Source of the DNA: a bacterium
GTDB lineage: Bacteria > Babelota > Babeliae > Babelales > Vermiphilaceae
Length of the DNA: 52,326 nucleotides
Reading direction: 5' to 3'
Assembly (NCBI GenBank): GCA_021777215.1
Contig: JAJYDS010000008.1
Span: 1-52,326 of the forward strand
In this document: piece after piece, positions 38,817 through 42,704 of the stretch
Numbering within the stretch: the stretch's first letter is position 1
How the letters are laid out: each line of letters opens with the position of its first letter
Notes under the pieces: generated by a model
Seen by the model: only the letters and a program-made list of their open reading frames with translations
Databases searched by the model: none
Told to the model about the DNA's origin: nothing
Position numbers and translations under genes: made by a program

Positions 38817-40013
38817 TCAGGAATCTCCCAGTTCTTGTGCGCGCGAGAGTGCTTGCGCTAGCTGTTCTTCTCCCTGACTGGCTAATTCGTCATCGTAGGG
38901 CAGGTTGTATTTCTTCAAAAAGGCATTGACTACTTGTTGGTATTGCTTTGACGTATTCAGATATGCGTGAGTGATAGATTCGTCGCTTATAAAGTAGTAG
39001 ATAGGATTTTTAGAATTTTTGCGCAACTTTTTTACTAAAGCAGTGACGCTAGCATGAGAACTAATAGGATCGCCCTTGATATTGCCGATAAAAATAGGGA
39101 CATCTTGTGCGAGGCAGAGTGGCGAAGTCTCTTCTTGTTGTGTGGCTTTTTCAGAGCTGTAGTTTGGATAATAAAAAGAAAAAAGCCGGTGTGCGAGTGC
39201 GCCGGGGATTTTTGAATGGGTAAATTTCAGGCTTACCTCTTGGCAGGCGGAATGAAGTGATGTCGCTGGTGATTCCAAAATGATCGCGCGTACATTAGTA
39301 TCACTTTGGTAGTGTTGCATCCATCCTAAAATGGCAGTAGCGCCTCGACACAGTCCGTGAAGCACCACGTCTCTATCGGCTGCTTTCTGATAGGCAAAAT
39401 CTATATTTTTTTGATCGGTGTCTTGTCCAAAATTAAAAACGCAACGCGCATCGTTATGGGCGATAAATAACGCTGGTCCGTGGATAATGTGCCGGCCCAG
39501 GTATCGGGTTGCCAACCGTCTGTTTTCATTAATGCCTCGAGCAAGATCTCTTCCGCTGCAGGGATCCCAACCGCATGAGGCTATCCACAGGGGCTCATTT
39601 CCAGGAAATGATAGTGCTGTTGCCCCCTCTGTTACTTCATATTGTTCATTTTTTACTGAGATGATAAAGGGTTCTAAGGATTCACGTCTGCCCATAAGTC
39701 CCTTTGCAACGGTCGAGAGACGTGGAGTAGGAGGGGCAGAGTTTACCGGCGTCTCTGTTTGAAAAACAGGTAGCGGAGAGTCTATATCTTGTTTTTTTGG
39801 TGTGGCGGAGAGTATTTGAAGATTTTCGATGGTAGGGGTAAAAGCTGCAGGTTTACTTAAGGAGAGATATCCAAGATATGCTGTTGCTGCAGCGCCAGCT
39901 GTATAGAGTGTAACCTCCTTAAGTGTAGGCGCAGCCTGTATAGGCATTTCTTGTGGTATGAAGAGCAAGCTTAAAACTAAGGTAAAAAACGATTTTTTCT
40001 TTGCTTTTATATG
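38817..40013 (-). CDS. Secreted alpha/beta hydrolase with Cys nucleophile, paralogue 1
   Basis: 398 residues from ATG 40011-40013 (GAGAAGATCT upstream); an ATG 14 codons earlier would bury the signal peptide. The leader (MHIKAKKKSFFTLVLSLLFI...IQAA) is followed by a membrane-like stretch and a hydrolase domain. The nucleophile elbow is GLCRGAT (Cys222 in this numbering), with Cys where Ser is usual. A candidate acid is in KGDPISSH and a candidate His in ITHAYL. Conserved FIAHNDARCVFNFGQ precedes the elbow. Cys-Asp-His triads occur in dienelactone hydrolases, but the substrate here is unknown. It is last of three tandem paralogues and closest to the second. Confidence 0.75.
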   Translation of the reverse strand, partial: HIKAKKKSFFTLVLSLLFIPQEMPIQAAPTLKEVTLYTAGAAATAYLGYLSLSKPAAFTPTIENLQILSATPKKQDIDSPLPVFQTETPVNSAPPTPRLSTVAKGLMGRRESLEPFIISVKNEQYEVTEGATALSFPGNEPLWIASCGWDPCSGRDLARGINENRRLATRYLGRHIIHGPALFIAHNDARCVFNFGQDTDQKNIDFAYQKAADRDVVLHGLCRGATAILGWMQHYQSDTNVRAIILESPATSLHSACQEVSLKFTHSKIPGALAHRLFSFYYPNYSSEKATQQEETSPLCLAQDVPIFIGNIKGDPISSHASVTALVKKLRKNSKNPIYYFISDESITHAYLNTSKQYQQVVNAFLKKYNLPYDDELASQGEEQLAQALSRAQELGDS

Positions 40014-40105
40014 CATAGATCTTCTCTCAGTGTGGTTTTTATATAGAGAGGGCATTAGCGCGAATAGTTTTAGTCTGTTTTTTAATGATGGCGTGATTTT
40101 TTGAA

Positions 40106-41293
40106 CTAATGCGAGCCGGCTACTAAAGCATTTGCTTGTATTCGAGCTTTTTCAAGAAGTTCTTGTCCTTGTTCGGCTAATTTTTCATCATGGGGCAAAT
40201 TATATTTTTTCAAAAATGCGTTGACTGCTTGTTGGTAGGTTTTTGATTTGCTTAATTGCGCGTGTACCAGCATTGAATCATCGCAAACAAAATAATAGAG
40301 AGGGTTGGAAGATTTTTTTCTCAACGCTCGTACTAAGTTTGTGACAGTGCCAAAGGAGGTGTACGCATCCTGTTTAAGTGTGCCAATAAAAATAGGAACG
40401 TCTTTTGCTATGTGGAGTGATTCTATCTCTTTTTGTTTCTCTGCTTTTAAAGGGTTGTAATTAGGGTAATAAAAAGAGAACAACGAATGAGTAAATGTAC
40501 CGGCAAGATTTGAATGGCTGACACTCAGGCTTTTATCAATACATGCCATTTTTAGTGATACTGCCGGTGATTCAAAAATAAAGGCGCATATATTATTATC
40601 GTTTTCATAGTGTTGCATCCAGCCAAGAATGGCTGTTACACCGCGGCAGAGTCCGTGAAAAATTACTTTTTTACCGGTAACTTGGTGGTAGATAAAGTCT
40701 ATGTTTTTTTGATCGGCATCTTGGCCAAAATTAAATATGCGTCGGCTGTCATTGTGGGCAATAAAAAGTGCTGGGCCATGAATTATATTTCTTCCTAGAT
40801 ACCGTTTTGCTAAACGAATGTTGGGATTAATACCGCGTATTTCATCAGGATCAAATCCCGGGGTCCAGCCGCAGGAGGCAATCCAAATTGGTTCGTCGGT
40901 ATTGAGTGCGCAAGAGACGGTACCTGGTTGTAAGGTGTAGGTTTTATTTGATGCTGTGATCAAAAGAGGCTTTTCTTGGTGAGCGATGGTGGGAAAAAGA
41001 GTTTTGCTTATTCCCATTATGATAGAAGAGGTGAATGATACTGGTGTTTGTGATTCAAAAAGTGTTTTTTGGGTCAGATCGGTATTTTCTAGAGGTACTG
41101 CTGATAGAGTTTGTAAAGTTTCTATTGTCGGGGTGTATCCCTGTGGCGTGCTGCAATACAGGTAGCCAAAACCGGTAGTTGCTGCTGTCCCCGCGCAAAG
41201 AGCGAGTTTTTTCAACGATGGTGATGCTTTGGTTTGGCCATTTGATGCAAGTATCGAGAGAGCGATAAAAAGACTATAGGTTGTTTTTTTCAC
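40106..41293 (-). CDS. Secreted alpha/beta hydrolase with Cys nucleophile, paralogue 2
   Basis: 395 residues from a GTG start with CAGGGA upstream. It has a signal peptide (MKKTTYSLFIALSILASNGQTKA), then a short hydrophobic segment and the same hydrolase domain. The elbow is GLCRGVT with Cys216, the acid candidate is in LKQDAYTS and the His is in LVHAQL. The motifs IASCGW, RYLGR-IIHGPALFIAHND and FNFGQDADQKNIDF are shared almost word for word with paralogue 1, so these two arose by recent duplication. The C-terminus, with NAFLKKYNLPHDEKLAEQGQ, is also common to both. Likely exported, function unknown. Confidence 0.75.
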   Translation of the reverse strand: MKKTTYSLFIALSILASNGQTKASPSLKKLALCAGTAATTGFGYLYCSTPQGYTPTIETLQTLSAVPLENTDLTQKTLFESQTPVSFTSSIIMGISKTLFPTIAHQEKPLLITASNKTYTLQPGTVSCALNTDEPIWIASCGWTPGFDPDEIRGINPNIRLAKRYLGRNIIHGPALFIAHNDSRRIFNFGQDADQKNIDFIYHQVTGKKVIFHGLCRGVTAILGWMQHYENDNNICAFIFESPAVSLKMACIDKSLSVSHSNLAGTFTHSLFSFYYPNYNPLKAEKQKEIESLHIAKDVPIFIGTLKQDAYTSFGTVTNLVRALRKKSSNPLYYFVCDDSMLVHAQLSKSKTYQQAVNAFLKKYNLPHDEKLAEQGQELLEKARIQANALVAGSH

Positions 41294-41369
41294 GAGAAAT
41301 TTCCCTGTAGGTAATGCTTTTTTTGTTTTTTAAATCTAATGCAATATGTTCAATTTGTCGATAGGAGGA

Positions 41370-42704
41370 TTAGACAGTTTGTGCTTTTAAAAGAGCTTTT
41401 TTAAGCAGAGGCTCACCAATTGCTGCCAACCCTTCATCATACGCGATGTCGTAGTGCCTTAAAAAGGCATTGGTTACTTGCTGAAATGCCGGTATCCTAC
41501 TTAGCCGTGCGTGGGTGATTGTCTTATCCTGCATGATAGTTAAATAAACATTTTTGTGACCGGTAGTACGCAATTGGTGAACAATTGCGGTAATGTCATT
41601 ATAAGAAATAACTTTGTCGCCCTCCAGATGGCCAATCAAAACAGGGATATCTTCAGGGATGTTGCCAAGCTTAGGTAAAAATGAGGGATAGTTAGGGTCA
41701 TAGTTGGGAAACCACACTCTAAAAAATGAATGGAGTATTGTTGGAGATTTTGGTAGCCAGCCAATATATGAATGTGCCACCTGTGTCGCAAGATTTTTAA
41801 GGTTGAGTGAAGGTGATTCCAGAATTACTGCTTTAATGTGCGCGAAGTCTTTTTGGTCTAAGCGAGAGAGTAGATTGAGGAGCGTTGTTGCTCCTCGGCA
41901 GGTGCCAATCAATACATTGTCCTTATTTTTTACTTGGTCGTAGGCTGATCTCAAGCAGGCCAAATCAGCAGTCTGCCCGAAATTAAAGACTCTCCGCTCG
42001 TCATTATAATTGAAGGTAACGCACGGGCCATGAATAATAGAGCCTTCGATAAAATGAGCTGCCTGATCAAGACCCGATTCAGGTTCACTTTCTTGAGAGT
42101 ATTTTTGAGGACGGTGGCCCATAAAACCAGGAGAGACCAGCCAAGTTGGGGTAAGCGCGTGGTTTTGACTTGTTAGAACAGGTTTATAAATTTGCTTTTG
42201 AGGTGCGGTCATAGGAATTCGCGTGTCGGATTTTTTTGTGGTGGGCGTGGTGCTGGATGTAGCGTTTTGTGCGTGTTTTCCGGATGTTATTGTTGAGTTG
42301 TCTTGGATAATGGAGTTTGTGTGTGTTGCTACTGTGTGAATCTTGACGGTGTTTTGCCCCAAATCTATGCATACAGCCGTATTTTTTTGGTGACACAGGT
42401 GTTGTTTAACGGCACTCAGATTTAATAATTTTGGTTCTGAGGTGAAATGATTTCTAGGCGTGAGCGTAGTTATTTGTAAGGCTTCCGGGCGCGGGCTGTC
42501 TTTCACCGGTGCACGAAACCAAGAAAAACCCACAGAAACTAATGCAGAGCCAATGAGAGCAGTAGGAATAGCCCAGAGTGTCGCAGTATTATGAGTGTGG
42601 AGATGTAGGCAAGATTGTATTTGATAGCATTGAGTGCTTTGCGCAGTAAAATTTGATGACAAGCAAAAAAAACAGAGGATGCACACGATACCTTTTTTAA
42701 TCAT
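41370..42704 (-). CDS. Secreted alpha/beta hydrolase with Cys nucleophile, paralogue 3 (divergent)
   Basis: 444 residues. A strong AGGAG precedes the ATG. A signal peptide (to about residue 21) is followed by a second hydrophobic helix (about 42-60), a Thr/Lys-rich low-complexity linker (about 85-185) and the hydrolase domain. The elbow is GTCRGAT with Cys269, the acid is in LEGDKVIS and the His is in ITHARL. FNYNDERRVFNFGQTAD matches the motif of the other two. It is the most diverged copy and the first in transcription order. All three keep Cys, Asp and His, which argues that the Cys is functional. Confidence 0.72.
   Translation of the reverse strand: MIKKGIVCILCFFCLSSNFTAQSTQCYQIQSCLHLHTHNTATLWAIPTALIGSALVSVGFSWFRAPVKDSPRPEALQITTLTPRNHFTSEPKLLNLSAVKQHLCHQKNTAVCIDLGQNTVKIHTVATHTNSIIQDNSTITSGKHAQNATSSTTPTTKKSDTRIPMTAPQKQIYKPVLTSQNHALTPTWLVSPGFMGHRPQKYSQESEPESGLDQAAHFIEGSIIHGPCVTFNYNDERRVFNFGQTADLACLRSAYDQVKNKDNVLIGTCRGATTLLNLLSRLDQKDFAHIKAVILESPSLNLKNLATQVAHSYIGWLPKSPTILHSFFRVWFPNYDPNYPSFLPKLGNIPEDIPVLIGHLEGDKVISYNDITAIVHQLRTTGHKNVYLTIMQDKTITHARLSRIPAFQQVTNAFLRHYDIAYDEGLAAIGEPLLKKALLKAQTV

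Follow-up and report, generated by a model that had tools for sequence, protein, structure and literature searches.

What do three neighbouring genes encode when each places a cysteine at the elbow where an alpha/beta hydrolase commonly carries its serine nucleophile, and could that cysteine work? The question is raised by positions 38,817 to 42,704 of contig JAJYDS010000008.1 (assembly GCA_021777215.1), from a bacterium of the Vermiphilaceae; the whole 52,326-nucleotide stretch analysed is called the window hereafter. Our analysis revealed that these genes are the Cys branch of a secreted serine-hydrolase family found throughout the phylum Dependentiae, locally triplicated, and suggests that they use a Cys-Asp-His triad.

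Three tandem genes with a common set of motifs

All three genes lie on the reverse strand. Copy 1 (38817–40055; 412 residues) shows a signal peptide followed by an alpha/beta-hydrolase domain, as judged from the open reading frame (ORF) list, the alignment and the family profile, and most plausibly starts at Met14. Copy 2 (40106–41293; 395 residues) starts with GTG, and copy 3 (41370–42704; 444 residues) is, of the three, the closest to homologues from other genera. Sequence identity is 52% between copies 1 and 2 and 29% between copies 3 and 1, and all three are alignable across the entire hydrolase domain. Common to them are FNFGQ-x-x-D before the elbow (FNFGQDTD, FNFGQDAD and FNFGQTAD in copies 1 to 3, respectively), the elbow G-[LT]-C-R-G (GLCRG, GLCRG and GTCRG), ESP, an Asp in G-x-[LI]-x-x-D, HA-x-L (HAYL, HAQL and HARL) and a C-terminal tail; both the Asp and the His columns align. 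A simple heuristic scan, by which all signal peptides were called, found a Sec-type N-terminus in each copy.

None of the three copies passes a Pfam cut-off. Against Hydrolase_4 (PF12146; cut-off 27 bits), copy 1 scores 15.1 bits and copies 2 and 3 give no match, and all three carry Cys at the position of the Ser nucleophile of that family. Dienelactone hydrolase (PF01738) matches none of them up to an E value of 1. NCBIfam yielded sub-threshold matches only, for copies 1 and 3, and none for copy 2; PHROGs yielded weak matches only, for copy 2. At the array, Rfam gave no match, and promoters and terminators showed no excess. A fourth paralogue, of the serine type, is encoded elsewhere in the same genome (C3:207-782; elbow GVSMG; row L004).

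Predicted fold and putative catalytic residues

We modelled residues 86–395 of copy 2 with AlphaFold2 from nine sequences, namely the window copies and L122–L127. The model adopts an alpha/beta-hydrolase fold, with a predicted local distance difference test (pLDDT) of 70.8 and a predicted template modelling score (pTM) of 0.76. A model from the three window copies alone was unusable (pLDDT 38). As in the superfamily, the copy 2 model has a central beta sheet with a strand-nucleophile-helix elbow, and Cys216, Asp309 and His344 occupy the canonical elbow, acid and base positions. The predicted nucleophile Cys216 (GLCRG; 40646–40648) is model residue 131, between strand 125–130 and helix 132–141; the predicted acid Asp309 (40367–40369) is model residue 224, after strand 216–221; and the predicted base His344 (40262–40264) is model residue 259, after strand 247–252. 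By alignment, the corresponding predicted residues are Cys236 (GLCRG; 39348–39350), Asp329 (39069–39071) and His363 (38967–38969) in copy 1, and Cys269 (GTCRG; 41898–41900), Asp363 (41616–41618) and His398 (41511–41513) in copy 3, all on the reverse strand. Both the order nucleophile-acid-His and the Gly-rich elbow G-x-Nuc-x-G are those of alpha/beta hydrolases.

The best Foldseek match of the model is the Pf2001 esterase (E 5e-8), with acylaminoacyl peptidases also among the matches. VIA returned monoacylglycerol lipases, feruloyl esterases and acyl-protein thioesterase 1, with Z of 14–16 over 170–229 residues (~186–220 for the best matches) and of ~15–16 for the monoacylglycerol lipases and acyl-protein thioesterase 1. 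A PDB sequence search with copy 2 alone found nothing relevant. In a profile search against PDB sequences, the Ser/Cys and Asp of the family align with the GxSxG motif and Asp of feruloyl esterase 7wwh, and the Ser/Cys, Asp and His with those of Pf2001 (5g59).

A cysteine branch of a phylum-wide serine family

A profile built from the three window copies (A1) detected homologues in 50 of the 86 genomes of the class. With a 38-row profile, matches at E ≤ 1e-5 occur in 85 of 101 phylum genomes, the weakest of which may be other alpha/beta hydrolases. Of the six named loci that profile A4 returned, five carry the label Dependentiae or Babeliales and the sixth only "bacterium". The viral contigs and plasmids searched hold no relative, and no description of the family was found within the limited library of literature searched.

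We aligned 95 homologues, a few of them weak or partial (e.g. L091, L092, L082 and L086). The nucleophile column does not vary freely, holding Ser in 73 rows, Cys in 21 and Ala in one. The acid is Asp in 93 of the 95 and the base His in 92, and the elbow Gly at nucleophile +2 is invariant. Given this conservation and the canonical topology of the model, a Cys-Asp-His triad is the interpretation that fits the window copies best. The single Ala homologue, L077:746-1735 (+), also has Leu at the oxyanion position and is likely inactive.

Homology between the Cys branch and the Ser branch is clear, as hhalign aligns them over 253 columns with an E value of 5e-46; both have a GQ-x-x-D/E motif and the C-terminal LPH tail. 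In the homologue alignment, Ser at the nucleophile is always encoded by TCN and Cys always by TGY, so that a single C-to-G change accounts for the swap.

In a tree of 89 rows built without the nucleophile column, the window copies fall inside a 17-row clade of 16 Cys members and one Ser member (support 100/99), which is confined to the family-level group of the window genome. A second tree with three members added recovered a clade of 19 Cys members and one Ser member (support 100/100). We searched 29 genomes of that family-level group, of which 14 carry genes of the Cys clade. Only five of 312 filled columns are invariant among the 20 clade members (Pro, His, Gly, Phe and Asp), and the Cys comes next, being kept in 19; this retention, together with the homologues in 50 class genomes, argues that the observation is not due to chance. 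Outside the clade, Cys occurs in L032, L047 and L088, which belong to another family, and in L085. On the 89-row tree, the nucleophile label changes about five times, at least four of them across supported branches. A single origin of Cys with L012, the Ser member, placed outside the clade was disfavoured marginally (approximately unbiased test, p 0.046), so we claim no reversion for L012.

The same stretch had been described from its letters alone (the sequence-only reading) as three adjacent, same-strand, exported genes of an apparently lineage-specific family, with the motifs G-x-C-R-G, FNFGQ-x-x-D, an Asp and HA-x-L and with a probably working Cys-Asp-His triad. The genes, their positions and motifs are confirmed here, and the triad is retained as the most reasonable interpretation. 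Lineage specificity applies to the Cys clade and the three-copy array, but not to the wider family, which is spread through Dependentiae and mostly carries Ser.

Rewriting of the oxyanion motif

A second active-site motif, at the end of the strand leading into the oxyanion loop, also differs between the two types. Of the 68 Ser rows used in the tree, 48 read HG here and the remainder PG or QG. Among the 20 Cys rows, by comparison, 13 have RG and five have CG, PG or SG, HG being found only in L032 and L047. L012, the sole Ser member of the Cys clade, has HG. The pattern is suggestive of a coupling between the nucleophile swap and the rewriting of the oxyanion motif. All four informative independent pairs agree in associating Cys with absence of the oxyanion His, a number too small for significance.

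A putative mechanism and its alternatives

In the alpha/beta fold, a Cys-Asp-His triad would form an acyl-thioenzyme and release the acyl group to water or another acceptor. The window genes probably encode Sec-exported hydrolases of the monoacylglycerol-lipase, feruloyl-esterase or acyl-protein-thioesterase type, which would act on acyl esters or thioesters through such a triad, as far as sequence and model indicate. In the model that we propose, they would derive from the secreted serine hydrolases of Dependentiae, most simply by a TCY-to-TGY change at the elbow, and the oxyanion motif would have been rewritten alongside (HG to RG, CG or PG). The His would activate the Cys thiol, which would then attack an acyl ester or thioester to give an acyl-thioenzyme. 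Water or another acceptor would subsequently release the acyl group, hydrolysis of the ester or thioester being the most likely outcome. The copies would have arisen by tandem duplication at a locus of interchangeable exported cargo, and their most likely targets would be acylated molecules, from the host or in the envelope, that lie outside the cytoplasm. Three observations weigh against this proposal. Copies 1 and 2 lack a Pfam family above threshold, as expected of fast-evolving or degenerating copies; the structural model was built from just nine sequences and lies partly below a pLDDT of 50; and L012 carries Ser, so that Cys is not obligatory in the scaffold of the clade.

The main rival is that the proteins are acyltransferases, in which the acyl group would move from the Cys acyl-thioenzyme to an acceptor amine, hydroxyl or thiol; we regard this as rather improbable. 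Acyl transfer by Cys-type alpha/beta folds occurs in BAAT and PHA synthase; among the homologues, three of the Ser type hit BAAT_C (best E 6.4e-6) and one hits PHA synthase I. However, the BAAT_C-matching relatives score stronger on many esterase families, we identified no acceptor site and the closest structural neighbours are hydrolases. The altered oxyanion motif of the Cys clade would also suit an acyltransferase, and Ser/Cys differences are known among alpha/beta-fold thioesterases and N-acyltransferases (PMC9825947). An inactive protein with a binding or adaptor role, whose Cys is a relic, is unlikely. The strong divergence of copies 1 and 2, their lack of any Pfam family above threshold and the loss of the HG motif would fit such a role, but the Cys, Asp and His columns rank among the best conserved of 312 at a clade identity of ~20–30%, and the drift to Ala, Gly or Thr expected of a relic Cys is not seen. 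The least probable alternative is a Cys-nucleophile peptidase of the prolyl-oligopeptidase/S33 type. Peptidase_S9 and Hydrolase_4 do match 22 of 25 Ser relatives (best E 2.9e-9 and 1.2e-10, respectively), and acylaminoacyl peptidases are among the Foldseek matches; however, both profile models cover the fold broadly, lipases and esterases reach equal or higher ranks, and no beta-propeller or peptide-binding accessory domain is seen.

Beyond ester or thioester hydrolysis by a Cys-Asp-His triad, a more far-reaching reading is possible, which we offer tentatively: one Dependentiae family may have undergone a natural Ser-to-Cys conversion of a secreted lipase/esterase-like enzyme, with rewriting of the oxyanion motif and a changed chemistry (on host proteins or lipids, for example, exchange of thioesters or acyl transfer). 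This natural and traceable family, in which ~20 relatives with Cys and 73 with Ser also differ in a second active-site motif, provides a testable case of how such a swap would be compensated. If the conversion is true, the other Cys rows (L032, L047, L088 and L085) and the Ser member L012 with its HG motif amount to replicate experiments.

Export and the M23–uvrC locus

Signal-peptide-like N-termini are found in 82 of the 95 homologues and in 20 of the 21 Cys rows, versus 7 of the 27 other long ORFs of the window. A second hydrophobic segment, a candidate membrane anchor, is seen in copy 3 and L007 (mean Kyte-Doolittle hydropathy 1.6–1.7) but not in most members. Pfam and synteny analysis revealed conserved boundaries on both sides of the array, a uvrC-like gene (37353–38636, reverse strand) and a divergent gene for an exported M23 peptidase (42870–44057, forward strand). 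Across genomes of the family, the site between them (38637–42869 in the window) ranges from ~116 bases to ~7.9 kb. A single Cys hydrolase occupies it in G024, G056, G012 and G053, whereas G089 has two and the window three; in G034, G006 and G088 it is nearly empty (116–178 bases). Other cargo, mostly bearing signal peptides, includes ankyrin repeats (G013), a PP2C phosphatase with a weakly PAP2-like protein (G061), MutS-like proteins (G014 and G017), a DUF4143 ATPase without an obvious signal peptide (G043) and members of unknown families. Given this variable, unrelated content, we read the site as a cargo site and the window triplet as a local tandem expansion; the site is possibly a hotspot at which interchangeable exported cargo turns over.

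In four genomes, the cargo site encodes MutS-like proteins whose N-termini resemble signal peptides (L145:364-2655 (-), L148:467-2572 (+), L149:2857-4995 (+) and L150:3137-5122 (-)). Those tested contain MutS_III and MutS_V, and signal peptides are unusual for this DNA-repair family.

Elsewhere in the window, at 20339–29122, genes for two secretins, a PilM/GspL-like protein and a GspC-like protein follow one another; they form part of a system for type II secretion or type IV pili. From their presence, type II secretion components might be the export route of the hydrolases. A palmitoyl-protein-thioesterase-like gene (33925–34784, reverse strand; PF02089, E 2e-56) is frame-broken in the window; its family occurs in only 11 of 101 phylum genomes, with intact relatives adjoining clpB in G012 and G056 and lying elsewhere in other genomes, and with a second copy at G000:C9:12712-13395. 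The clpB-like ORF at 35001–37124 encodes 707 residues versus 856 in relatives (L123:6215-8782 and L124:8389-10956) and may be N-terminally truncated or frame-broken.

An envelope or host target, as supposed in the sequence-only reading, would fit the signal peptides and the variable exported-cargo site. The Dependentiae parasitise single-celled hosts. Since the known members are intracellular parasites with large predicted secretomes, mostly uncharacterised (PMC6561590), a target in the host is plausible. For such a phylum, this study provides a candidate family of exported enzymes and names the M23–uvrC site as a place of exported-cargo turnover.

Comparison with known systems

The Hydrolase_4, monoacylglycerol lipase and feruloyl esterase group (6qe2, 7ozm, 5g59 and 7wwh) resembles the window family in fold, triad order and weak, repeated profile matches. 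However, the window family has Cys instead of Ser and RG, CG or PG instead of HG, together with its own GQ-x-x-D motif and, at the C terminus, a conserved LPH...A..G tail. Acyl-protein thioesterases 1 and 2 (Abhydrolase_2) are cytosolic and, unlike the Cys clade, serine enzymes; their fold matches the copy 2 model with Z 15.3 (6qgs), and PF02230 matches 10 of 25 Ser relatives but only one Cys-clade member. Dienelactone hydrolase combines the alpha/beta fold with a Cys-Asp-His triad, as predicted for the window copies, and PF01738 gives weak matches for two of the 17 members of the Cys clade and three of the 25 of the Ser type. The window family differs from it in being exported and in its nearest fold neighbourhood; furthermore, its Cys is nested within a Ser family of one phylum and was therefore probably acquired separately.

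The earlier statement that no described system has this make-up was too strong, because alpha/beta-hydrolase families with Cys or mixed Ser/Cys nucleophiles have been described, both residues occurring among thioesterases, N-acyltransferases and dienelactone hydrolases of this fold (PMC9825947). The window genes represent a Cys variant within a phylum-wide secreted Ser family. The engineered cysteine lipases are reminiscent of this clade, in that the Ser-to-Cys change of CALB was accompanied by compensating mutations in the active site; such swaps in alpha/beta hydrolases usually abolish activity unless other residues change, and the same work raises the question of whether cysteine lipases exist in nature (PMC6642262). 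The CALB enzymes are laboratory-made, whereas the swap in the window is natural, which makes the Cys clade a candidate for natural cysteine lipase-like enzymes.

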